Origin: a virus
Strand: one strand, 5' to 3'
DNA length: 39,278 bases
IMG/VR virus record: IMGVR_UViG_3300042878_000561
Coordinates: 1 to 39,278 of that record
Shown: one piece after another, positions 1,111 through 39,278 of the stretch
How the letters are laid out: every line of letters starts with the position of its first letter
Position numbering within the stretch: the stretch's first letter is position 1
Program-made: the position numbers and the translations under genes
The notes under the pieces: generated by a model
Told to the model about the DNA's origin: nothing
What the model saw: the letters and a program-made list of their open reading frames with translations, nothing else
Databases searched by the model: none

Positions 1111-2877
1111 ATGGCATTATCAATGGAACAAGTTGCGGCGCGGGTCGAGAACCTTCGCTTCCGCAACGCTGAACGCGACGGTCGTAACCTCGACGTTCTT
1201 GCAGTCCGCAAGGGTAACATTGCATCTGTATATCCTGACTTCTTCCCAGACGGAGTAGATGCTAACGTAGTTGCTAACTTTATCGACATTGTCGCACGCG
1301 ACTTGTCTGAGGTTATGGCGCCACTACCTGCGGTCAATTGTTCTGCTGCTAACTCTGTTTCAGATAGAGCCCGTCAGTTTGCTGATAAGCGTACACGTAT
1401 CGCCTCAAATTATTTTGCTCACTCTGACCTTTCGGTTCAGATGTACCAAGGTGCCGACTGGTACCTCACTTACGGTTTCCTCCCATTCTTTATTGAATTG
1501 GATGAGGAAGCAAAGATGCCACGTATCCGCCTAGAAAACCCAGTGGGTGCTTACCCAGAATTCGACCGCTACGGACGCTGCATTGCCTTTGCAAAACGCT
1601 ACATGACTTCTTTGGCGGAGTTAGTTTCATTGTTCCCTGAGTATGAATACTCTTTGCTAGGTGGCGCAAGTTACAAGCAAGACTTAAATACTCAAGTAGA
1701 AATGATTCGCTACTTCGACAAAGACCAATCAATCATCTACATTCCTACAAAGGATAACCTAGTACTATCACGTGCTAAGAATCCATTGGGTAAGATGATG
1801 GTTGTAGTAGCACGTAAGCCATCTATTGATGATGAACTACGCGGGCAGTTCGACGACATCCTGGGTATCCAGTTACTTCGTAACCGCTTTGCATTACTCG
1901 CAATGGAAGCTGCAGAGAAATCTGTTCAAGCTCCAATCGTACTCCCACAGGATGTACAAGAGTTGCAACTTGGTGGCGACGCTGTTATTCGTACAGCTAA
2001 CCCAGCAGGCGTACGCCGTGTAGAACTTAATATTCCAGCAGGTGCGTTCACTGAACAGAACTTGCTTAATCAAGAATTGCGTGTGGGCGCACGCTATCCT
2101 GAATCACGTACAGGAAATATCAACGCATCAGTTGTTACTGGTCAAGGTGTACAGGCTCTTATGGGAGCCTTTGATACACAGGTTAAATCTGCACAAGCAA
2201 TCTTTGCATCTTCTCTTCGTGATGTAATTAGCATTTGCTTTGAGGTTGATGAAACAATCTTCCCAGCAGAAAAGACAATTCGTGGTGTCGACTCAGGTTC
2301 ACCATATGAAATTACTTATTCTCCTAAGAAAGATATCAAGGCCGACTACTCAGCCGATGTCCGTTACGGAATGCTTGCTGGTCTTAACCCAGCACAGGGA
2401 CTTATCTTTATGCTCCAGGCACTTGGTGGTGGACTCATCTCCAAGGATATGGCAATGCGTGAACTTCCATTTACAGTTAACGTAACCCAAGAACTAGAAA
2501 AAATTGAAATCGAAAGCATGCGAGCATCGCTTCTCGGTTCCATTACTGCACTCTCTCAAGCGATACCGCAGATGGCTATGCAAGGCCAGGACGCTTCTGA
2601 AGTTGTGCGACAGATTGCTGCTGTCATTAAGGCACGCCAAAAGGGACAGGCACTAGAGGACGTCATTGAAGAAGTCTTTACGCCGCAGCAGCAACCAGTT
2701 CCTCCTGCTGGGGCACCACAAGCGGTTGAGCAACCGTCCCCTGTTCCCGCTGGCGTTCCAGCAGGAGGCGCTACCCCTGAAATTGAACAAGCACCACCAG
2801 ACATTATGAGCCTACTATCAGGTATTACTGGTAGTGGAAAGCCAACGGCAAGCGTTCGTTCAACGCGAACCATATAA
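1111..2877 (+). CDS. Portal protein
   Basis: Probable portal protein of 588 aa, the dodecameric ring at the capsid vertex through which DNA enters and leaves. The call rests on position directly after terL, on size, and on a soluble mixed alpha/beta protein with a long helical C-terminal region. It ends in a low-complexity Pro/Gln/Ala tail (about residues 540-575). I place the start at 1111 (MALSMEQ) because TTAGGAC lies just upstream and this leaves a 7-base gap after terL. An in-frame ATG at 1063 would overlap terL by 41 bases. No single residue motif proves the family, but no other gene in the window fits the portal role. Confidence 0.82.
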   Translation: MALSMEQVAARVENLRFRNAERDGRNLDVLAVRKGNIASVYPDFFPDGVDANVVANFIDIVARDLSEVMAPLPAVNCSAANSVSDRARQFADKRTRIASNYFAHSDLSVQMYQGADWYLTYGFLPFFIELDEEAKMPRIRLENPVGAYPEFDRYGRCIAFAKRYMTSLAELVSLFPEYEYSLLGGASYKQDLNTQVEMIRYFDKDQSIIYIPTKDNLVLSRAKNPLGKMMVVVARKPSIDDELRGQFDDILGIQLLRNRFALLAMEAAEKSVQAPIVLPQDVQELQLGGDAVIRTANPAGVRRVELNIPAGAFTEQNLLNQELRVGARYPESRTGNINASVVTGQGVQALMGAFDTQVKSAQAIFASSLRDVISICFEVDETIFPAEKTIRGVDSGSPYEITYSPKKDIKADYSADVRYGMLAGLNPAQGLIFMLQALGGGLISKDMAMRELPFTVNVTQELEKIEIESMRASLLGSITALSQAIPQMAMQGQDASEVVRQIAAVIKARQKGQALEDVIEEVFTPQQQPVPPAGAPQAVEQPSPVPAGVPAGGATPEIEQAPPDIMSLLSGITGSGKPTASVRSTRTI

Positions 2878-30888: not shown

Positions 30889-31276
30889 TTTGGATTTTGG
30901 GTACGGACGTAAGGGCGAACAGTTAGTAGATGAGTTGCTAACAGGTGGACGCACAGTTGAGGTCAAGCGTGACCGCAAGTGGGCTAAGACTAACAACCTA
31001 TACATTGAGACTGAGTGCTTCTTCAAGAAGATTGAGGATTGGGCACCATCAGGGTTAGGTGTAACCGAAGCTGCATACTGGGCATTCGTACTCGAAGAGA
31101 GCACATTGATTGTACCAACAGATGCACTACGATATGCAGTAAAAGAGTTTGGTAGAGAGATTACGTGTAACATCCCACCTAATCTGTCTAAGGGATTCTT
31201 AATTACAGTAGATGATTTAATGTCAGCAACCCGACTCTACAAGAAAGCAAAGGCAGATGAACTGGCAACAAATTGA
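30866..31276 (+). CDS. PD-(D/E)XK-like endonuclease, 136 aa
   Basis: A small nuclease-like protein. LDFGYGRKGEQLVDELLTGG provides the first Glu, and RTVEVKRDRKWAKTNNLYIE provides Glu32-x-Lys34 with a later Glu. The segment ECFFKKIEDWAPSGLGVTEA then AYWAFVLEEST matches a phage family of single-domain nucleases. It overlaps the methyltransferase by 23 bases and the sigma-like gene by 20, so all three are coupled. It may be a partner of the methyltransferase (degrading unmethylated host DNA) or a recombination nuclease. Neither role is proven. Confidence 0.75.
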   Translation: MSNKSSFDLDFGYGRKGEQLVDELLTGGRTVEVKRDRKWAKTNNLYIETECFFKKIEDWAPSGLGVTEAAYWAFVLEESTLIVPTDALRYAVKEFGREITCNIPPNLSKGFLITVDDLMSATRLYKKAKADELATN

Positions 31277-31949
31277 GCCGTGGGAATATGTAATCACGGC
31301 AGTAGCCTCTGAGTATCATCGCAAGTTTGACATGGTTGAACTAGAAGATATCAAGCAGAGTTTATATGAGTGGTTCGCTAAGCACCCTAACAAGGTGGCT
31401 GAGTGGGAAAAGATAGGTAACAAGGATGCAAAGAACCTTATCTATCGGAGCTTACGGAATCATGCGTTGGATTATTGCCAGAAGTGGAAGGCAAAGAGTG
31501 TCGGATACGACGTGTCAGATTTATATTACTATGAGTCAGATGTTGTAGAAGCACTGCTCCCTGCTGTGTTGCGTTGTGAATGGGGTGTTACTCATAAGTT
31601 AAACTTGGGTAGACCAGGGCGACCAAGCGCCCCTTCCGAAGGTGGAAACTTATCTGTCATGATGATGGAGATAGACTCCGCATACTGGAAGTTGAGTAAG
31701 GAGGATAGAAAGATACTCTTCTTCCGATATGCAGAGTCTATGGACTACAAAGAGATAAGCAATTACTTATCACTAGGTAGTGATGACGCAGCACGCATGA
31801 GAGGTAACAGAGCCATCAAGCGACTGGTCAATAAGTTGGGTGGCTTCAAGCCATTCTATGATACTGACTTTACGGAGACCACGGAAACAGAGCCATCAGA
31901 AGACTCATCATACCAAGAATTAGGTACACCAATACAACAAGAGCAGTAA
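31257..31949 (+). CDS. RNA polymerase sigma-factor-like protein, 230 aa
   Basis: A 230-aa protein with two parts. Residues 8-80 (LEDIKQSLYEWFAKHP, then AKNLIYRSLRNHALDYCQKW) look like a region 2-type helical domain. Residues about 140-200 (AYWKLSKEDRKILFFRYAES, MDYKEISNYLSLGSDDAARM, RGNRAIKRLV) form a region 4 helix-turn-helix of the sigma-70 type. A polar linker with PGRPSAPSEGG joins them, and the last 30 residues are acidic and disordered. It would direct host RNA polymerase to phage promoters, most likely those of the late operon. It is the last gene of its operon. Confidence 0.75.
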   Translation: MNWQQIEPWEYVITAVASEYHRKFDMVELEDIKQSLYEWFAKHPNKVAEWEKIGNKDAKNLIYRSLRNHALDYCQKWKAKSVGYDVSDLYYYESDVVEALLPAVLRCEWGVTHKLNLGRPGRPSAPSEGGNLSVMMMEIDSAYWKLSKEDRKILFFRYAESMDYKEISNYLSLGSDDAARMRGNRAIKRLVNKLGGFKPFYDTDFTETTETEPSEDSSYQELGTPIQQEQ

Positions 31950-32002: not shown

Positions 32003-32221
32003 TTACTCCGCACCAGGGTCGAACTCTTTGTCGAAGTTATCTTCTGAGTTAATCATCTGTTCTATCATGTCCTCTAAGTCCAGCTCCGCTGGGTCAACAT
32101 TCAATGCTTCCCCATTTACATTGTAGAACTCTTCAATCTCTTTCATGCTAGCAAACTGTAGTTCATCAGACTGTAAGTCACAGGCTGAACAACCACCGCT
32201 TTCACATACTTCACATACCAT
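32003..32221 (-). CDS. Acidic CxxC protein, 72 aa
   Basis: The last gene of the leftward operon, 72 aa. Four cysteines open it: C3-EV-C6 and C11-SA-C14, a compact metal site. A strongly acidic, helical body follows (PAELDLEDMIEQMINSEDNF). There is no recognisable family. It follows the FmdB-like gene closely (3-base gap). Small zinc-binding proteins recur in this operon and may modulate host protein complexes, but that is a guess. Confidence 0.72.
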   Translation of the reverse strand: MVCEVCESGGCSACDLQSDELQFASMKEIEEFYNVNGEALNVDPAELDLEDMIEQMINSEDNFDKEFDPGAE

Positions 32222-32224
32222 TTG

Positions 32225-32401
32225 TTATCCTCCTGTTGAATAGAATCCACTGCCATTAAACTTGACAGGTGGTGCACTGTACACCCTTACCATTGGCTCA
32301 TTGCAACTGTCGCAGTAAGGTACGATTTCCTCATCGGTCATACCTCTACTGATTGTGATAGTGCTTGAGTCATCTTCACATTTGTATTCATAACTAGCCA
32401 T
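32225..32401 (-). CDS. FmdB-like zinc-ribbon protein, 58 aa
   Basis: Read from the ATG at 32401, the protein is MASYEYKCEDDSSTITISRG...VPYCDSCNEPMVRVYSAPPV. This matches the FmdB-type putative regulatory zinc ribbon (YxYxC...C-x2-C, RVYSAPPVKFNGSGFY). In the usual family the first metal pair is CxxC. Here only Cys8 is kept (CEDD), so one ligand may be lost or replaced by Asp. An in-frame ATG at 32419 would add six residues before the conserved MxxYEYxC start, so it is rejected. It overlaps the upstream gene by 8 bases. Confidence 0.82.
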   Translation of the reverse strand: MASYEYKCEDDSSTITISRGMTDEEIVPYCDSCNEPMVRVYSAPPVKFNGSGFYSTGG

Positions 32402-32807
32402 GTTGCCACTCGCTTCCATCAGTTGTGTATCTACCGCTACAAGTTCTGCAGTTGTAAGTGTTGTTCTCCCAACTGTAGTTAGGTCTACATGGGTGCCCTG
32501 CTAGCATCTCCCATGCATTAATCGAAAGCATTTGAGGTGAACGTAAGGTTACAGTTGCTGGTGTGTTAATCATCACCGCTGTCTGAATCCAACCGCCTAC
32601 GTTAGGAAAGATTACAGAGTGTTCTGTAACTCCATCGTTAGTACTAGACCTGTATGTTATTTCATTAGCAGGTGGCATAGGTCGTGATGGTACGGAGAAT
32701 CCATGTTCCCGTACACGTCCGAATATTGGTGAGTCAAAGTCTAATAACCCACGCATTTCCATCTCGCGTTCACGCTTCTTTATTACTTGATGTAAGAACT
32801 CAGCCAT
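32394..32807 (-). CDS. Hypothetical protein with C-terminal cysteine motif, 137 aa
   Basis: A 137-aa leftward protein. An N-terminal charged helix (FLHQVIKKREREMEMRGLL) is followed by a beta-rich middle. The end is PCRPNYSWENNTYNCRTCSG with Cys107, Cys120 and Cys123, perhaps a zinc site. The middle part (EITYRSSTNDGVTEHSVIFP) suggests a small beta sandwich. I do not recognise the family. It overlaps both neighbours by 8 bases. Confidence 0.72.
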   Translation of the reverse strand: MAEFLHQVIKKREREMEMRGLLDFDSPIFGRVREHGFSVPSRPMPPANEITYRSSTNDGVTEHSVIFPNVGGWIQTAVMINTPATVTLRSPQMLSINAWEMLAGHPCRPNYSWENNTYNCRTCSGRYTTDGSEWQHG

Positions 32808-33024
32808 CTGTTACCTCATCACTAGGGTGTGGAGCTGTGGCTAAGGTGCCACATACTACACATTCCATTGTCTCTGTAAACCACATACTTATATCCCCCT
32901 CTTCATCGAACATTACCTTGACTAGCCATAACTGTGAACCACAAGGACATACTGTGGTTGGTTCACCACGAATGTCCATCGACTCTGAATAGTCATGACT
33001 AATATTATCTACATGCTCACTCAT
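32800..33024 (-). CDS. Zinc-ribbon-like protein, 74 aa
   Basis: A 74-aa protein with C26-P-C28 and C55-VV-C58 separated by a 26-residue beta segment (QLWLVKVMFDEEGDISMWF), the usual spacing of a rubredoxin-like or zinc-ribbon fold. It starts at the base that ends the transglycosylase gene's stop, so the two are coupled. No further role can be read from sequence. Confidence 0.72.
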   Translation of the reverse strand: MSEHVDNISHDYSESMDIRGEPTTVCPCGSQLWLVKVMFDEEGDISMWFTETMECVVCGTLATAPHPSDEVTDG

Positions 33025-33416
33025 TAATAGTTACCATTCCTCTTCCAATAAGACCATGCATCGCATGGTGTACCGTATCTATAGTAAATGTAATCAAGCC
33101 CACGCTCTATCTGTCGTGGTGCTGGTGTGTCAGGGTCAAGCCCCAACAGTTGTGGAATCCCACCCGCATGCTTCCCCATCACGCGAATAGGATTGAAAGC
33201 TTGAGGATTCCATGCGGATTCCTTGCCCCACAATCTGTTGAGACATGACACTTGCTCATCTTTCCACTCGTTGAGTTTATCTCTAGCGTATGCCTTGCTA
33301 TCTGCCTTACTCCAAATGACTCGCACGCCTTTGTCTGTTGTGTCCGTGGCTGTCTTTGAGTTGTCGGCTAATAGCAGGGCTACTACTACGAGCAGTAAGA
33401 ATGTTAGTGATTTCAT
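33024..33416 (-). CDS. Exported lytic transglycosylase-like protein, 130 aa
   Basis: A 130-aa protein with an N-terminal signal or membrane segment (MKSLTFLLLVVVALLLADNS). The body resembles a lysozyme-like fold of actinobacterial transglycosylases: CLNRLWGKESAWNPQAFNPI with the probable catalytic Glu66, KHAGGIPQ, and GLDYIYYRYGTPCDAWSYW with a cysteine pair (58 and 118) that may form a disulfide. Being in the leftward, presumably early, operon and having its own export signal, it is separate from the late lysis cassette. It could loosen wall peptidoglycan for entry or secondary roles, or block superinfection. The WhiB gene lies immediately upstream with a one-base overlap. Confidence 0.8.
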   Translation of the reverse strand: MKSLTFLLLVVVALLLADNSKTATDTTDKGVRVIWSKADSKAYARDKLNEWKDEQVSCLNRLWGKESAWNPQAFNPIRVMGKHAGGIPQLLGLDPDTPAPRQIERGLDYIYYRYGTPCDAWSYWKRNGNY

Positions 33417-33742
33417 TAGGCTGTTGCCCTTACTCTATGTGCGAAGTTAATCTTAGACCCACGATTATTCCATTTTACTGGAACATTTGCAAGTACGATA
33501 CGCTCACCTGGTAGAGAGCCTCCCCAAATTCCATCGTCTAAATTCTCTCGCTTCATACCCTCAGCAAAGCACTCAGCTTTAACGGGGCATTGATTACAGA
33601 TAGCCAGCGCGGTCTGTACATTAGTGATGCGCTGTTTGTATTCTGCGCTATCAACATTGGTATTAGAATTCTCTCCGTCACTATCGACAGACTCGCTGAA
33701 CCATAGGTCAGGGTTCTCATGACCTGTACATAGACCTTGCAT
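33416..33742 (-). CDS. whiB: WhiB-family iron-sulfur transcription regulator, 108 aa
   Basis: A clear WhiB-like protein. Four cluster-binding cysteines: Cys5 (GLCTGHENPDLWF), and C49-NQ-C52-PVKAE-C58, spaced as in the family. The GIWGG turn (71-75) precedes a basic C-terminal segment (RVRATA). WhiB proteins bind region 4 of the housekeeping sigma factor through the 4Fe-4S cluster and redirect host transcription. Some mycobacteriophage versions inhibit host WhiB2 and block superinfection. The family is restricted to actinobacteria and their phages, so it is the best host marker in the window. AGGAGATAC ribosome site. Confidence 0.95.
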   Translation of the reverse strand: MQGLCTGHENPDLWFSESVDSDGENSNTNVDSAEYKQRITNVQTALAICNQCPVKAECFAEGMKRENLDDGIWGGSLPGERIVLANVPVKWNNRGSKINFAHRVRATA

Positions 33743-33750
33743 TGTATCTC

Positions 33751-33849
33751 CTATCTCTCTAGTGCTTCCTCTAACATTTCGTCAAACTCTTCCTCAATAA
33801 CTTCATCGTCCTCGAAAGATGGGTCATTGAGTGGTGGTTCATAACTCAT
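33751..33849 (-). CDS. Very small acidic protein, 32 aa
   Basis: A leftward frame MSYEPPLNDPSFEDDEVIEE followed by EFDEMLEEALER. It is 32 aa, extremely acidic, with a helical end. It overlaps the gene before it by 11 bases, and a ribosome site AGGAAAGG precedes it. Its reality rests on the packed operon, coupling and absence of any competing frame. It could be a DNA mimic or small protein antagonist because of its charge, but nothing confirms that. Confidence 0.5.
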   Translation of the reverse strand: MSYEPPLNDPSFEDDEVIEEEFDEMLEEALER

Positions 33850-33988
33850 GTTTGTATTCCTTTCCTACTTCATACTCACTACATACAGCTTCGACTGCCA
33901 TGTCTAAGTCTCTGCGCAAGCGTACTCTATCTGCTTCGTTTAGATGAGCAATCATCTCATCAGTTAGTTCAGCTTTCCATGTACTCAT
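33839..33988 (-). CDS. Small hypothetical helical protein, 49 aa
   Basis: A leftward frame MSTWKAELTDEMIAHLNEAD, RVRLRRDLDMAVEAVCSEYE, VGKEYKHEL. The ribosome site is GAGAGGATAC. It is a charged helical protein with one Cys. It lies in a 306-base stretch between the 89-aa gene and WhiB that otherwise has no annotated product, and it has the same site/start arrangement as its neighbours. Confidence 0.62.
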   Translation of the reverse strand: MSTWKAELTDEMIAHLNEADRVRLRRDLDMAVEAVCSEYEVGKEYKHEL

Positions 33989-34048
33989 AATGTATCCTCT
34001 CTGTTAAGTTTAAGGTGAGCAGTTTCAAGTCATACTCAGGACATGGTA

Positions 34049-34318
34049 TTAGGGTTGAAAGATTACATCTACATACCCGTTTAGGCGGTAGTCTGTAGCA
34101 ATCAATCCCTTCTTACCATTAAGGTGCTTGTATGTGCCGTCACCTAACGCCACCCATAGTGACTTAGGCTTGAAGCGGTTCTGCACTTCCTTAGCCTTGA
34201 CGATAGTGCCCTTAGGCATGTGGTCTGACGAAACTGCAGAGTCAATGTTAGCCTCTAGTTCGTCAGCGATGATACGGATTTCCTCAACTAGGTTGAAGAG
34301 ATTGGTGGTTGTGGACAT
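34049..34318 (-). CDS. Hypothetical protein, 89 aa
   Basis: An 89-aa leftward protein. It opens with a helical part (LFNLVEEIRIIADELEANID), followed by a small beta barrel-like segment (GTIVKAKEVQNRFKPKSLWV, ALGDGTYKHLNGKKGLIATD). The second part resembles an SH3-like fold. The ribosome site is AGAGAGGTAAC. It is preceded by a short gap after the amidotransferase gene. Function not recognised. Confidence 0.72.
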   Translation of the reverse strand: MSTTTNLFNLVEEIRIIADELEANIDSAVSSDHMPKGTIVKAKEVQNRFKPKSLWVALGDGTYKHLNGKKGLIATDYRLNGYVDVIFQP

Positions 34319-34368
34319 TTGTTACCTCTCTGTTGGTGTTACTCTGCATACACTTTGCATACAGAATG

Positions 34369-35211
34369 TTAGTATGGGAAGAAGTCATAACTCCTAGCAC
34401 TTGTCCACTTGCTAGTGCTTGGAGTGTAACACATACAAGTATGTATCACATCTCCGCAATCATAGCACATGGTACATGTCGTGCAGTAGTATGGGTTCTC
34501 GTTCATGTCTGCTATCTCGTAGCAGTAAGGACATAATTCTATGAGTGGGTCATCATCTATCGCAGCTTCGTATCTCTCTAGCAGTTTGTTATAGACTTCC
34601 TCTTGGTAAGTCTGACTATCTGTTACCACTTTAGGTGCGGTGTAGGTAGTACGCTTGTGACTCTGATTACTCCACCAAATACCTTCGTTATCCCATGTGC
34701 CTAGGTTCTCATTGACTAGGTACATAGGATACTTGGAGGTAGGACTGGTCGTGAGTATAGCAATCTTGCTACCACTAGCCCACTTAGAAATCATGAGCCA
34801 AATAGTATCATCATCTAGTGCATTGACACCACCTAGTTTAGGTAGCGTGTCCTCTGCAAAGACTCGTGTGTCTGAACGGCGGTCGCCGTGTGGTATAGCA
34901 ACATCTAACACACCATTGTGTGCTAGGTATGTGCCTTCATCATCACCTACCTTGAATGGGTGACAATTCTGTTCGTTCTTTACACCATGTGTGGCGTATC
35001 GTGCATGCCACATGGCGTAGCCATTGGGGTACTGCGCTCGCAGCTCCATGAAACGCTTGATAGATTTTTTTGCAGACATACTACGTTCTGAGATAATCTT
35101 ATCTCCAGCGTGTATGGCAAAGCCAAAGCCATGCGGGTTAGCACAAGCACCAGCGTGCAAGTCACTAGCCTTAGGCGTGGAGTTTGGCTCACACACTACA
35201 AGTATGCACAT
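34369..35211 (-). CDS. Class II glutamine amidotransferase-like protein with C-terminal zinc cluster, 280 aa
   Basis: An N-terminal nucleophile amidotransferase. The Met is followed by Cys2 (MCILVV), so Met removal would expose the catalytic cysteine. NPHGFGFAIHAGDKI (25-39), MWHARYATHG (67-76) and TYLAHNGVLD (94-103) are the family's glutamine-binding and oxyanion-hole motifs, with SDTRVF (113-118). The C-terminal part (227-261) carries C-x2-C, C-x2-C-x2-C-x2-C and CMC, a dense metal site absent from ordinary enzymes. It takes ammonia from glutamine for transfer. Its neighbour, 10 bases upstream, is an amidoligase, which is the natural partner. It has an AGAGAGGATACT ribosome site. Confidence 0.88.
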   Translation of the reverse strand: MCILVVCEPNSTPKASDLHAGACANPHGFGFAIHAGDKIISERSMSAKKSIKRFMELRAQYPNGYAMWHARYATHGVKNEQNCHPFKVGDDEGTYLAHNGVLDVAIPHGDRRSDTRVFAEDTLPKLGGVNALDDDTIWLMISKWASGSKIAILTTSPTSKYPMYLVNENLGTWDNEGIWWSNQSHKRTTYTAPKVVTDSQTYQEEVYNKLLERYEAAIDDDPLIELCPYCYEIADMNENPYYCTTCTMCYDCGDVIHTCMCYTPSTSKWTSARSYDFFPY

Positions 35212-35221
35212 AGTATCCTCT

Positions 35222-36526
35222 CTATGCTTCGATAGGTTGTCTGTTGTTTAACTCTACGCTTGCAATCTTAGGCAGTCGTGAGTATAGGTCAGGGTATAGT
35301 CCGTTGTTATCTCTGACATAATCAATGAACCATTCCCATGTGAGTGCGCCTAGTTTAACATCATCTAAGCGTAACTCTCTCGTGTATTCCACGAGTGCTT
35401 GTGTCAGGTCAAGCGCGGATAACACCCCGCTAGGGTTCATAGTACCCCTAAAGAAGCGCAGCTCCAGCGTATCCCTGTTCTGTGTATTAACCGCAGAGTA
35501 TCTCTCTGTGGAATTGCGTTGCGGGTTGCCTGTCTTGTGCTTGAAGGACATGACTGGCTTGTCATACTCATCAAACTTATAGCAATCATTGAAGCGGGCA
35601 TAGTCGGACTTACGACCAGCAAACTTCATCATCATCTCACTGTTGTGGTAGATGAAAGCAATAAAGCGGTGCGTGTGTGCGCCACTAGTAAAACCAGCAC
35701 GACTCACATGAATGTGTAATCCGCAGGTTGTAGTATCCCATGACCTAGCATGGTAATCGGTACGCAGTTTGTCGATAGTCTGCCACAGTAGGGCAGAGTT
35801 ATCTCTATACTCTGAGTGAGTATGAGGTTGCGTAACTATCTCGAACCCTGAGTATCCGTCACGACCTATACTAGCGTCATTCTTTAGGATAGCGATAGGC
35901 GTGAGTGCGTTACTAGCAAACTCTGCAGCTTCGTCTAGTGTGGTACTGCTACCTCTAATCTCTGTCTCCAACTCGAAGCCTAGATAGACACCCTTGCGGG
36001 AGACACCCTTGAATTCTAGCGTTGGTTTGCATGAGTAGTTATGAATGTTACCTCTGCACCCGCAGTCATGTCTGATTGCAGTAGCAGTATTACAGTCGCA
36101 AGGACTATCATTATTAAAGTATTCATCATGCTCTTCACAGTAGTAACAGTTAGACTCGTAGCAATCTTGGCAGTAAGTATTACCCTGTACATACCAGTTA
36201 TCGTAATAAGTATTGTAATTCTCGTCGCACGACTCGCAGTAGAATGAATGGTTCTCATAGCAACCTTGACACCAATCCTCGTTCTGAACCGTATGTGTAG
36301 CATCATTATTTTCTACTGTATCGCAACGCTCGCATACTGTGCCACACTCTGAGCAATAAACATTATCACCAATGAGTGCGTCATCATTAGGCATAAGCGT
36401 TGAGCATGAGTCGCAATAGAGTGTGCAATTTGCGCACACTATGTCGCCGTTAGGCATTGTGCGTTCGTCACCCTCATCAATGAGAGAGTCGCAGAACTCA
36501 CAATTTATTGCAGCTTCATCAGACAT
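35222..36526 (-). CDS. Amidoligase (glutamine-synthetase-like fold) with N-terminal multi-zinc region, 434 aa
   Basis: A two-part protein. Residues 1-160 contain a string of cysteine pairs (C9/12, C31/34, C38/41, C58/61, C65/68, C86/89, C97/100, C119/122, C127/130 and two CxC), like repeated LIM or treble-clef fingers. Residues 170-420 match the COOH-NH2 ligase family related to glutamine synthetase: YLGFELETE (181-189), DASIG...GFEIVTQP (217-234), GLHIHVS (269-275), and RYSAVNTQNRDTLELRFFRG (342-361). Such enzymes join amino and carboxyl groups using ATP. With the adjacent class II glutamine amidotransferase it could amidate or peptide-tag a wall precursor or protein. The target is unknown. 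Confidence 0.87.
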   Translation of the reverse strand: MSDEAAINCEFCDSLIDEGDERTMPNGDIVCANCTLYCDSCSTLMPNDDALIGDNVYCSECGTVCERCDTVENNDATHTVQNEDWCQGCYENHSFYCESCDENYNTYYDNWYVQGNTYCQDCYESNCYYCEEHDEYFNNDSPCDCNTATAIRHDCGCRGNIHNYSCKPTLEFKGVSRKGVYLGFELETEIRGSSTTLDEAAEFASNALTPIAILKNDASIGRDGYSGFEIVTQPHTHSEYRDNSALLWQTIDKLRTDYHARSWDTTTCGLHIHVSRAGFTSGAHTHRFIAFIYHNSEMMMKFAGRKSDYARFNDCYKFDEYDKPVMSFKHKTGNPQRNSTERYSAVNTQNRDTLELRFFRGTMNPSGVLSALDLTQALVEYTRELRLDDVKLGALTWEWFIDYVRDNNGLYPDLYSRLPKIASVELNNRQPIEA

Positions 36527-36540
36527 AGGCTTACCTATCT

Positions 36541-36735
36541 CTATACTCTAGCGGGCTTTCCGCTAGTGTGGCTATCTATAATAGCGTTAGCAATCTTAGA
36601 ACGCAACTCCTCGGTCTCTATCACTAGAACCTTAAAGTCGTTGCGCTGGTGTGTGTCTTGCGCTTGGCGTAGTGCCATGCGAATAACCTCAACCTCACGA
36701 GGTGAGAGGTCTAGCAATAGACTATCTTGCGTCAT
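36541..36735 (-). CDS. Small helical protein, 64 aa
   Basis: A 64-aa leftward protein, MTQDSLLLDLSPREVEVIRM, ALRQAQDTHQRNDFKVLVIE, TEELRSKIANAIIDS. It is helical throughout. The first part (LSPREVEVIRMALRQA) resembles a short HTH-like helix. This small protein type is common in actinophages and its role is unknown. It overlaps the upstream membrane-protein gene by 14 bases. Confidence 0.75.
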   Translation of the reverse strand: MTQDSLLLDLSPREVEVIRMALRQAQDTHQRNDFKVLVIETEELRSKIANAIIDSHTSGKPARV

Positions 36736-36862
36736 AGTAGCCTTCGTATCTACGCAGTTTGCGTTCTAATACATAGACCCTACGAAACGCGACTATCAGT
36801 AGCAAATTAACTGACAGCAGTGCAATCATGACAGCGAATAAGTCGCTGGTAGATAGCATCAT
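36722..36862 (-). CDS. Small single-pass membrane protein, 46 aa
   Basis: Read from ATG at 36862: MMLSTSDLFAVMIALLSVNL, then LLIVAFRRVYVLERKLRRYE and GYYDAR. One membrane helix (about 8-25) is followed by a basic, heptad-like helix. The start is set there because ACGGAGAACGAC lies just upstream. A longer frame from 36913 would extend into the tRNA-like element and lacks a ribosome site. The basic side probably faces the cytoplasm. Function unknown. Confidence 0.68.
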   Translation of the reverse strand: MMLSTSDLFAVMIALLSVNLLLIVAFRRVYVLERKLRRYEGYYDAR

Positions 36863-36903
36863 GTCGTTCTCCGTTCTAGTCAATTCATGCTGGTTTGCAT
36901 GAG

Positions 36904-36948
36904 TGCCCCGCAAGGGAATTGAACCCTTGTCTGCAGCTCCAGCGGGGC
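36904..36948 (-). ncRNA. tRNA-like minihelix (acceptor stem plus T-arm, no D or anticodon arm)
   Basis: On the minus strand, GCCCCGC (36948-36942) pairs with GCGGGGC (36911-36905), a perfect 7-bp acceptor stem followed by A36904 in the discriminator position. Stacked on it is a canonical T-arm: stem AAGGG/CCCTT with a 7-base loop TTCAATT. Only 13 bases (36941-36929) replace the D and anticodon arms, so it cannot be a normal tRNA. It lies in the 95-base gap between two leftward genes. RNase P and the CCA-adding enzyme are known to recognise such acceptor/T-arm minihelices, so an mRNA-processing signal or decoy is plausible. A degraded tRNA gene is the alternative. Confidence 0.72.
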
Positions 36949-36957
36949 TATCCTAAT

Positions 36958-37257
36958 CTAATTATCGTCTAGGTGTATCGAACCCATGTCGCGCATGAGT
37001 TTATCCATGCGTTCTTGCAGGTCGATAGCCTTAAAGTCTTGCTCGCTCACCTTATGGGTGAGAGGTTGAACCTTGCGTGTCGAACGGTGGGGCTTACCCT
37101 TACGGTGGCGCGGTTTGCGTACCTTAGCGGGTTGGGCAGGGATAACGAAAGTTTCCCCATTAGGTTTAGTTATTGTGACCTCACTAACGCCATGCTTAGA
37201 CTGAACCCATGCGCGGGTTACTCTAGGCTTGCGTGGTGTGGTGGTAATTGAACCCAT
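36958..37257 (-). CDS. Basic hypothetical protein, first gene of the leftward operon, 99 aa
   Basis: A 99-aa basic protein, MGSITTTPRKPRVTRAWVQS... with a Lys/Arg/His-rich centre (KVRKPRHRKGKPHRSTRKVQ), a short strand pair before it (VSEVTITKPNGETFVIPA), and an acidic C-terminal helix (MDKLMRDMGSIHLDD). It has a TGGAGATAAATT ribosome site. As the first gene after the control region it should be among the earliest expressed. A nucleic-acid-binding role is suggested by charge only. Confidence 0.72.
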   Translation of the reverse strand: MGSITTTPRKPRVTRAWVQSKHGVSEVTITKPNGETFVIPAQPAKVRKPRHRKGKPHRSTRKVQPLTHKVSEQDFKAIDLQERMDKLMRDMGSIHLDDN

Positions 37258-37334
37258 AATTTATCTCCATTTCTAGTCGGTTTGCCTTGCGTGGATAGGC
37301 GCGAGTTTCCCCACGCCTACCCGCTAGATTATCT

Positions 37335-37352
37335 CCCCGCCTACAAGCGGGG
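37335..37352. promoter_or_regulatory. CCCCGC hairpin upstream of the leftward operon
   Basis: CCCCGC (37335-37340) pairs perfectly with GCGGGG (37347-37352) around CTACAA. Next to it, GCGTGG (37289-37294)/CCACGC (37311-37316) and TAGGCG (37296-37301)/CGCCTA (37314-37319) are two mutually exclusive stems in the likely leader of the leftward operon. Confidence 0.55.
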
Positions 37353-37420
37353 CATTAGTCTAGGTTTATTTCAATTTATCGACTAGCGAAATTCATGCCT
37401 CTCGTTCGCCATTCCCGCAG

Positions 37421-37476
37421 AATTAGGGTATCCTAATTTCTTAGAGAAATTGCAGACTACTAAAGTCTAAATTTCT
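37421..37476. repeat. Cluster of overlapping inverted repeats
   Basis: AATTAGG/CCTAATT (37421-37427, 37432-37438), AATTTCT/AGAAATT (37435-37441, 37445-37451), AGACT/AGTCT (37454-37458, 37464-37468) and AGAAAT/ATTTCT (37445-37450, 37471-37476) overlap within 56 bases. Several stems compete for the same bases. Confidence 0.7.
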
Positions 37477-37638
37477 AGGGTACGACTGCCTTTTATTACC
37501 GAGTGAAACTAGGTACTAATCGGATACCCGACTTTCCACTAACTCGGTGAATAACGCTTGCTCACCCTTACAAAGAGAAATTTACACTAGTGCAGCTCGG
37601 AAACCTAATCGGAAACACGCTCAACCTAAAAAAACTTT

Positions 37639-37654
37639 TGTGATACCCGTCACA
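37639..37654. promoter_or_regulatory. CRP/GlxR-type operator 1
   Basis: TGTGATACCCGTCACA is a perfect TGTGA-N6-TCACA palindrome, the consensus of cAMP-receptor-family regulators (CRP; GlxR in actinobacteria). It lies 22 bases before the second site. Confidence 0.7.
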
Positions 37655-37660
37655 CCTAGC

Positions 37661-37676
37661 TGTGAATTGGGTCACA
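37661..37676. promoter_or_regulatory. CRP/GlxR-type operator 2
   Basis: TGTGAATTGGGTCACA is another perfect TGTGA-N6-TCACA site. Its offset of 22 bases from operator 1 is about two helical turns, so two dimers would bind the same face of the DNA. Confidence 0.7.
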
Positions 37677-37870
37677 CTTTCACCCTTTCCCTGCGTGTCG
37701 GTTTGCCTATTGCAGCTCGGAGTGGTACGCGATTACCAAACTAGGGCAATTCGGACATTCCCTGCACCTACCATTCTCGCGCCATAAGCGCAAGGGTTTA
37801 GCCCTATGAATTGCATCACACTATGCAGCTCGGTTTGCATAATAGAATGGTATGAAAATTACCCGCCATT

Positions 37871-37981
37871 CCTGAGAGTTTCCTGAGAGCCTTGTACCTA
37901 GTGTGAGCTGGGTCACACCTAGTAATGCTGGGAGTTTGCTGGGAAATAATTGTGTGCCCCCTGAGAATTTCCTGAGTGTGG
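37871..37981. repeat. Iteron-like repeats in three 11-bp-spaced pairs
   Basis: Pairs at 37871/37882 (CCTGAGAGTTT, CCTGAGAGCCT), 37927/37938 (GCTGGGAGTTT, GCTGGGAAATA) and 37960/37971 (CCTGAGAATTT, CCTGAGTGTGG). Each pair is offset by exactly 11 bases, one helical turn, and the last two pairs are 33 bases apart. This is the pattern of initiator-binding iterons. Confidence 0.72.
37902..37917. promoter_or_regulatory. CRP/GlxR-type operator 3
   Basis: TGTGAGCTGGGTCACA, a third perfect TGTGA-N6-TCACA site. It is flanked by CTAG on the left and CCTAG on the right, which extends the palindrome, and lies between the first two iteron pairs. Confidence 0.7.
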
Positions 37982-37995
37982 GTGGATAGTCGTTC

Positions 37996-38035
37996 AATAG
38001 ATAAACCTATAAATAGTTATAGCAACTTATCTATT
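37996..38035. repeat. Nested A+T-rich palindrome
   Basis: AATAGATAA (37996-38004) pairs with TTATCTATT (38027-38035). Inside it CTATAA pairs with TTATAG around ATAG. It lies directly after the iteron-like array and is a candidate DNA-unwinding element. Confidence 0.72.
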
Positions 38036-38118
38036 TATCGACAATTCACTTAGAGTATAACCCTATACCTTAGAGTTAGACATTATGACCCCAGATTGTT
38101 TAATTGAGCCGTCAGGGT

Positions 38119-38135
38119 GGGGGATAGTATCCCCC
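38119..38135. promoter_or_regulatory. GGGGGA/TCCCCC hairpin
   Basis: GGGGGA (38119-38124) pairs with TCCCCC (38130-38135) around TAGTA. TAAAAATTT follows, so it lacks a classical T-run on the + strand. Role uncertain. Confidence 0.5.
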
Positions 38136-38176
38136 TAAAAATTTCTGTTATATAATACTATAGCCCCCCTATATAT

Positions 38177-38195
38177 AGCCCTGAACAGGGCTTTT
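38177..38195 (+). terminator. Rho-independent terminator in the control region
   Basis: AGCCCT (38177-38182) pairs with AGGGCT (38187-38192) around GAAC, followed by TTTT. It faces rightward with no gene directly upstream on that strand, so it should end a non-coding transcript or insulate the late promoter from readthrough. Confidence 0.72.
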
Positions 38196-38245
38196 AAAAT
38201 ATATTCACATAAGTTGTTCGCTTTTGCGATTTGAACAGGTTATCT

Positions 38246-38298
38246 TATATGTATAGAAATACATATACGGAGTCGCTCCGTTTAAGACTCCGCGACTC
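38246..38298 (+). promoter_or_regulatory. Structured leader/operator before the late operon, with competing stems
   Basis: TATATGTAT (38246-38254) and ATACATATA (38259-38267) form a 9-bp palindrome. Next to it GGAGTCGC can pair in three exclusive ways: ACGGAG/CTCCGT (38267-38272, 38276-38281), GGAGTC/GACTCC (38269-38274, 38286-38291), or GAGTCGC/GCGACTC (38270-38276, 38292-38298). It lies 88-140 bases before terL. Confidence 0.6.
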
Positions 38299-38300
38299 TT

Positions 38301-38326
38301 ATATATTATATAATATATTATAATAT
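38301..38326 (+). promoter_or_regulatory. Candidate late promoter (-10 region)
   Basis: An A+T-only block with two TATAAT hexamers (38309-38314 and 38319-38324), 60-70 bases before terL. No good TTGACA-type -35 box is at the right distance, which would fit use of the phage sigma-like protein or an activator. Confidence 0.5.
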
Positions 38327-38385
38327 GGGGAAGTTCTGCCGTTAATCGGCCAGCGTTAAATGACTGTAAATGATGGGGACAACTG

Positions 38386-39278
38386 ATGGGTAGAAAACCT
38401 GGGATTCAGAATATCCCTAAGCGCGAGGCGCAAGAAAAGGCCTTGCAGCAACTGAGTCAGGGTAGCACAATTACCCAGGCTATGGCCTCTGTAGGCCGCT
38501 CAGATGTAGCATTCCGCCAATGGTCAGCAACTGACCCTGAGTTTAAAGCACGTGCCGAGGCTGCTCGCCTCGAGGGTAAAGGCATCAAGACTGACCTAAA
38601 GGAGCTGGGAGATATATCCTTCCCCGACTTCTCTGAGCAGTTCCTAGATACTAAGCTCTTTGACCATCACCTTGACTGGATAGACCTGATTGAGGGCCGC
38701 GAGCCGCGCTGGCTAGACCCAGCCATGACCTACGAGGCAGGAGCTGCCAACCGTGTTCTCATTAACGTACCGCCTGAGCATGCTAAGAGTACGGTTATTA
38801 CGACTAACTACGTCGTTTATAAGATTGTTACCAACCCCAATGCGCGAGTCATTATCGTATCTAAGACTCAGGGTATGGCTCGCAAATTCCTTGGCGCAAT
38901 CAAAACAAGACTTTCCCACCCAGCCTTCACCAAACTCCAAGTAGCCTTCGGGCCTAACGGGGGATATAAGGCAGACTCAACACAATGGTCTGCCGATATG
39001 ATTTACCTGGGAACAGGACGCGACTCTGGAGAAAAGGACCCTACGGTCCAAGCCCTAGGTATGGGCTCTCAGATTTACGGTGCTCGCGCTGACCTGATTA
39101 TAATCGACGATGCTGTCATGGGCTCTAACGCTCACGAGTGGGAAAAGCAGCTCGAGTGGATTCAAAAAGAAGTTATTACTCGTCTAGGACGACATGGTAA
39201 ATTAATCATCGTTGGCACTCGAGTTGCACCAATTGACCTATATAAGATGCTCCGTGACCCCCAGCAATGGTCTGGTGG
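38386..39278 (+). CDS. terL: Terminase large subunit, N-terminal part (continues at base 3 of the window)
   Basis: The N-terminal 297 residues of the 622-aa packaging ATPase-nuclease; the frame runs off the window end and continues in phase at the window start. Residues 15-60 (LQQLSQGSTITQAMASVGRS and on) form a helix-turn-helix like that of small terminase subunits. Walker A is PPEHAKST (129-136), with Ala where Gly is commonly seen (compare PPRHGKST). Walker B is DLIIIDD (236-242). The coupling motif is IIVGT (274-278). The ATG at 38386 follows GGGGAC. Two earlier ATGs at 38370 and 38373 lie in another frame that stops at once. No separate small terminase gene was found. Confidence 0.95.
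   Translation, partial: MGRKPGIQNIPKREAQEKALQQLSQGSTITQAMASVGRSDVAFRQWSATDPEFKARAEAARLEGKGIKTDLKELGDISFPDFSEQFLDTKLFDHHLDWIDLIEGREPRWLDPAMTYEAGAANRVLINVPPEHAKSTVITTNYVVYKIVTNPNARVIIVSKTQGMARKFLGAIKTRLSHPAFTKLQVAFGPNGGYKADSTQWSADMIYLGTGRDSGEKDPTVQALGMGSQIYGARADLIIIDDAVMGSNAHEWEKQLEWIQKEVITRLGRHGKLIIVGTRVAPIDLYKMLRDPQQWSG
39152..39278. repeat. Terminal direct repeat, right copy (assembly overlap)
   Basis: Identical to bases 1-127. It shows that the contig closes on itself, giving a 39151-bp circular map. Confidence 0.93.

Follow-up and report, generated by a model that had tools for sequence, protein, structure and literature searches.

The window analysed here (the whole stretch of DNA, 39,278 nt) derives from a freshwater phage and has one large gene-free region, 37258-38385, lying between a leftward gene (36958-37257, minus strand) and terL, which begins at 38386 on the plus strand. 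Since terL continues at the start of the window, the phage map is circular. The leftward gene cluster spans 32003-37257, and the features on which the argument turns are as follows.

31257-31949, plus strand: gene for a sigma-like factor
33416-33742, minus strand: whiB-like regulator gene of the leftward cluster (PF02467, 5e-10)
36958-37257, minus strand: leading gene of the leftward cluster, coding for 99 aa without an assigned function, presumed first target
37579-37584, minus strand: putative -10 (TAAATT) after a 17-bp spacer, kept in the related phage L022 (GTGTAAATTTCTCTTTGTAAGGGTGA)
37602-37607, minus strand: putative weak -35 (TAGGTT), 31 bp from operator 1, assigned by comparison with the relatives L022 and L020
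37639-37654, unstranded: predicted CRP-type operator 1, TGTGATACCCGTCACA, a perfect match, promoter-proximal on the leftward promoter
37661-37676, unstranded: predicted CRP-type operator 2, TGTGAATTGGGTCACA, a perfect match, 22 bp upstream of operator 1 with respect to the leftward promoter
37805-37820, unstranded: fourth site with one mismatch, TATGAATTGCATCACA; the L022 version, TGTGATACTCGTCACA, is perfect
37902-37917, unstranded: predicted CRP-type operator 3, TGTGAGCTGGGTCACA, a perfect match flanked by CTAG repeats

The TerL of the window is 84% identical to that of OX376640/OX376641, the Planktophila phages E7 and F5, which were isolated on 'Ca. Planktophila landstejnensis' LanE-43 of the order Nanopelagicales (PMC10202952). 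Given this identity to phages known to infect LanE-43, the host of the window phage probably belongs to the same order. E7 likewise encodes a sigma-like factor and a WhiB-like protein. When 9 kb of the window was compared with known phages at the nucleotide level, no match was returned. Bacterial genomes scanned with TerL showed neither prophages nor binned phage contigs, and Rfam and tRNA scans of the window were also empty. Two adjoining genes at 34369-36526 (minus strand), one weakly matching a glutamine amidotransferase type (phrog_4736) and the other coding for an amidoligase-like protein (PF12224), form a possible peptide-tagging pair.

An earlier note on this DNA had reported three perfect TGTGA-N6-TCACA sites, a chance expectation of about 0.04 such sites per genome and a 22-bp distance between the first two. 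All three sites were recovered inside the sole large gene-free region, and the remainder of the window has no perfect match; the expectation is correct (39278/4^10), and the start-to-start spacing agrees. The core GTGA-N6-TCAC occurs in the whole window at these three places only, and the other spacers from 0 to 14 yield zero to two occurrences each. The inverted repeat has a spacer of exactly 6, as in CRP/GlxR operators. The central dinucleotides of the three perfect sites are CC, TG and TG, i.e., without a TA centre. The place and spacing of operator 1 are matched in L022 and L020, the latter also having a tandem operator pair, at 23 bp, and the position of operator 3 is repeated in L022 (-485 from terL).

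The host-regulator reading put forward in the earlier note would be undermined by relatives with the same control region lacking the motif, and this is not what was found. Retrieval of 80 IMG/VR relatives by TerL and removal of near-duplicates gave 56 non-redundant control regions, 47 of which carry the motif upstream of terL. Most relatives have one to four such sites in this region. When whole phage records were searched, perfect sites were present in 23 of 25 and the motif read backwards in none, and a single site (G004:23053) lay away from the terL-upstream region. The pooled motif of the relatives, TGTGANNTANNTCACA, or TGTGA-NN-TA-NN-TCACA (central T and central A 72% each), corresponds by its sequence to the known CRP/GlxR-type operator form. 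GlxR is known to use an operator of this form. The operator of E. coli CRP is TGTGAN6TCACA (PMC4117774). Among all 5-mer palindromes with spacers of 0-20, the motif was rivalled by AT-rich ATATA/TATAT types only, and GTGA-N6-TCAC was found 106 times in the control regions vs. 0-6 times for any other spacing. On these counts the three sites of the window are not a local accident. Relatives also have further sites 1-2.3 kb from terL, directly ahead of leftward genes with Shine-Dalgarno sequences and start codons.

An acI-852 16S probe led to the complete genome of LanE-43 and to further genomes of the Planktophila group. Each complete genome of the group, LanE-43 included, encodes one CRP-family protein that gives a complete match to HTH_Crp, so the regulator is present in the likely hosts; HTH_Crp was found in 0/25 phage records, in keeping with the statement that the phage has no CRP homologue. 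The recognition segment of the host protein, GASRETVNKALADF, is identical to that of M. tuberculosis CRP, with an overall identity of 55% (phmmer 1e-79), and the cAMP-pocket segments FGEL/PRTS/RRTN are retained. It is very probable, judging from these sequences, that the sites are operators of the host's single CRP/GlxR-type factor, which would activate the leftward cluster. The part of the earlier note that tied the phage to a host CRP/GlxR regulator is therefore upheld as a well-supported prediction from sequence, given the TA-centred motif, the single host CRP, the failure to find a CRP in the phage records and, as described below, the phasing to the -35 element and the avoidance of the site by the host. 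Its further suggestion, that infection is coupled to host carbon or energy status via cAMP, is unsupported. Although CRP/GlxR proteins of other Actinobacteria (C. glutamicum, M. tuberculosis) bind cAMP and the host protein keeps the pocket segments, the adenylate cyclase that cAMP-responsive control calls for was not found among the two classes searched: class III (PF00211) and CYTH (PF01928) cyclases were detected in none of six complete Planktophila-group genomes by profile searches that detected both in control genomes. In addition, the closest characterised relative, CRP-Mt, binds DNA significantly without cAMP (PMC4117774). We therefore regard it as unlikely that the phage reads host carbon or energy status through cAMP-CRP at these sites.

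The host chromosomes provide a second line of evidence. In that of LanE-43, GTGA-N6-TCAC occurs once, vs. approximately 24 times for other spacings up to 39 (lowest 12), and against codon-phase-matched baselines this is the strongest depletion among dyads with a spacer above 1 (4486 tests; 3e-9). Across 61 host-family genomes (~86 Mb), spacer 6 totals 467 vs. 1494 for spacer 9 and lies below it in 60 genomes, with one tie, and the perfect 16-mer was observed twice where ~82 were expected. One perfect site, in L195, has inorganic pyrophosphatase and PEP/pyruvate phosphate dikinase-like frames as neighbours; another, in L196 (genome G061, 1501-1516), lies just downstream of nth, overlaps or adjoins a possible -10 and is possibly a genuine host operator. 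No regulon was apparent on inspection around either, no operator with up to one mismatch was present in the intergenic DNA of LanE-43, and host sites with two mismatches formed no coherent set. The simplest reading is that these cells contain a protein whose binding to the dyad is so strong that stray copies would be selected against. Since the host genome contains no recognisable TGTGA-N6-TCACA regulon, the specificity of its CRP is deduced from the recognition helix and from this avoidance. Paradoxically, the host retains no obvious strong-site regulon of its own. A restriction-site cause of the avoidance was set aside, as 60 of 61 genomes show the depletion and the phages keep the site in promoter register.

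The lack of an evident host regulon could also be accommodated if TGTGA-N6-TCACA were read by a phage-encoded regulator of unknown fold, with host CRP uninvolved. Phages commonly use operators of their own, and most of the early proteins are without a family match and could hide a DNA-binding protein. We nevertheless consider this quite improbable, because no HTH_Crp domain was detected in the 25 phage records, the TA-centred motif is the CRP/GlxR one and the host CRP has the matching recognition helix, and avoidance of the dyad by the host chromosome would stay unexplained by a protein found only in phages.

Host CRP as the reader of the sites also agrees with their geometry. On the leftward strand, TTGACA (up to one mismatch) starts beyond the site at 10/11 bp (42 cases), 21/22 bp (16), or 31/32 bp (6). 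A phased leftward TTGACA accompanies 63 of 84 sites, compared with one in the rightward direction; random shifts of up to 60 bp produced a mean of 4.5 phased sites and a maximum of 13 in 500 trials, and 42 of 59 remained phased when similar flanks were collapsed. A 17-bp spacer usually follows, with TANNNT at 35 leftward vs. 1 rightward. Most sites thus lie upstream of -35 and in helical phase with it, as at class I CRP-activated promoters; phasing by single turns is what marks an activator that binds upstream and contacts RNA polymerase on one face of the helix. At E. coli class I promoters of the lac type, the activator sits upstream of -35 on one helical face in steps of ~10.5 bp, and in lac the centre of the CRP site is 25.5 bp above the -35 hexamer. 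The phage promoters, as predicted, have the same upstream activator site and one-face steps but differ in register by about 4 bp, with the centres of their sites 18.5, 29.5, or 40.5 bp above this hexamer. Some 14 gap-11 cases coincide in part with a tRNA-like RNA element, and the TTGACA in them may be explained by the structure of that RNA itself. Because the -35 of the window is itself poor, its assignment leans on the comparison with L022 (TTGAGT-17-TAAATT) and L020 (TTGACA-17-TAGAGT), where the distance from the operator matches. The phased promoters point leftward, away from terL, to probable early genes, a point missed by the earlier note; the genes are called early from their kind (whiB, ArdA anti-restriction, and small unknowns).

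Phasing also bears on whether CRP at these sites might be a repressor, a hold imposed in host defence or a titration sink instead of an activator. M. tuberculosis operators near -10/+1 repress (PMC4117774), neither operator 3 (37902) nor the one-mismatch site at 37805-37820 has a phased leftward -35, and the phages hold more perfect sites than whole host chromosomes. Against these observations, the placement of 63/84 sites upstream of -35 in steps of 10.5-11 bp is a geometry of activation rather than occlusion, and one to four sites per genome are few for a sink, which makes such a role highly improbable. A role outside transcription, as iterons of a replication origin or as structural repeats of the DNA, might be suggested by their repeat-rich, partly AT-rich gene-free surroundings, but is largely refuted and barely credible: the sites keep a fixed position relative to -35/-10 pairs, and those of relatives also precede single genes 1-2.3 kb away with Shine-Dalgarno sequences and start codons.

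With activation by host CRP as the preferred account, the protein would bind the tandem pair at 37639/37661 upstream of a leftward sigma-A-type promoter and, acting from one helical face, would help the host RNA polymerase to begin leftward transcription. The target would be the leftward cluster, with whiB among its genes, which is probably expressed early. Relatives would employ the same unit, site-10/21/32 bp-TTGACA-17 bp-TANNNT, repeatedly ahead of several leftward genes. The regulator would probably act as an almost constitutive helper, a sign that 'this cell is my host', and not as a gauge of cAMP. CRP binding, activation, and early timing are what we infer from these arrangements. A more tentative extension is that host chromosomes have been cleared of the strongest operators, so that the phages might own the best CRP promoters of the cell on entry and outcompete host genes. 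On the same reading, it is conceivable, if somewhat doubtful, that dependence on a weakly used, possibly cAMP-free host CRP is common to a large group of freshwater actinophages.

The arrangement site-10/11-TTGACA-16/18-TANNNT had at least 120 matches in IMG/VR vs. 29 for an out-of-phase control (15/16), the latter count coming from a complete IMG/VR scan. WhiB scored above the cut-off in 19 of 36 in-phase records, taken from among the matches listed, vs. 4 of 36 control records in which TTGACA is out of phase with the site (Fisher p = 3e-4). The in-phase records include contigs of ~97-112 kb with WhiB, indicating that this promoter habit is not limited to the 39-kb phage group.

The nearest precedent is the predicted use by cyanophages of host NtcA, a CRP-family regulator; NtcA-driven promoters were predicted in T4-like cyanomyoviruses, with sites in 16/16 genomes and 1-16 in each (PMC3037559). 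In both cases, a global host regulator of the CRP/FNR family is predicted to act on phage promoters and no phage copy of the regulator is needed. NtcA, however, senses 2-oxoglutarate, recognises GTA-N8-TAC and belongs to another host and phage group, whereas the present phages hold their site in rigid phase with -35, and the site is depleted from the host chromosome. The regulons of CRP-Mt (Rv3676) in Mycobacterium and GlxR in Corynebacterium share the operator TGTGA-N6-TCACA and activation from upstream sites, and the Planktophila protein is 55% identical to CRP-Mt with an identical recognition helix. ChIP sites of CRP-Mt lie, e.g., -62.5, -69.5, and -95.5 from the start (PMC4117774). Unlike those chromosomal regulons (191 and 209 sites), Planktophila chromosomes show no perfect-site regulon and the perfect sites are on phages. 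In the literature searched, no report of GlxR/CRP-dependent early promoters in actinophages was found. Very little work has been done on the phages of Nanopelagicales, which rank among the most abundant bacteria of fresh water. The present analysis offers a testable account of how transcription may start in these phages, points to one host gene, crp, that infection may depend on, and supplies a sequence signature by which such phages could be recognised in metagenomes. The contrast between phages that retain the sites and a host that has lost them also presents a clean natural case of genome-wide operator avoidance.

Several other elements were observed near the control region. A tRNA-like minihelix at 36907-36952 (minus strand) consists of an acceptor-like stem and a T-arm with the loop TTCAATT. 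In relatives (L005 near 1390-1434, minus strand; L050; L074; L077), it comes right after the distal CRP site and adopts a three-way fold with acceptor, D-like, and T-like arms but no anticodon arm. Neither ARAGORN nor Rfam called the minihelix; compared with shuffled sequences, three relatives are clearly better folded (z -2.6 to -4.3) and the window copy is not (z -1.1). Between the operators and terL, a terminator-like hairpin, AGCCCTGAACAGGGCTTTT, at 38178-38197 is shared by many relatives, with a GCCCT-N4 palindrome in 33/56 control regions, and suggests termination of a short rightward transcript or leader ahead of terL. Upstream of terL, where the DNA otherwise changes fast, 38204-38330 is a very strongly conserved block (GTTGTTCG...TTTGAACAGGTTATCT...GGAGTCGCTCCGTTTAAGACTCCGCGACTC) that contains AT-rich palindromes; it is a candidate origin, packaging site, or late promoter. 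Repeats of CCTGAGAGTTTCCTGAG occupy 37871-37976, and relatives have long CTGAGAGTT arrays near CRP sites, without a known binder. Near the operators, GCAGCTCGG is repeated at 37587-37601, 37707-37721, and 37823-37831; it is also found in L022 and L020 and is absent from the other relatives of the alignment. Finally, six relatives (L007, L009, L013, L026, L027, and L032) have a GGTATAAC/GGTATAAAC element ~39-40 bp to the right of the terL-proximal site, which is perhaps a rightward CRP-linked promoter.
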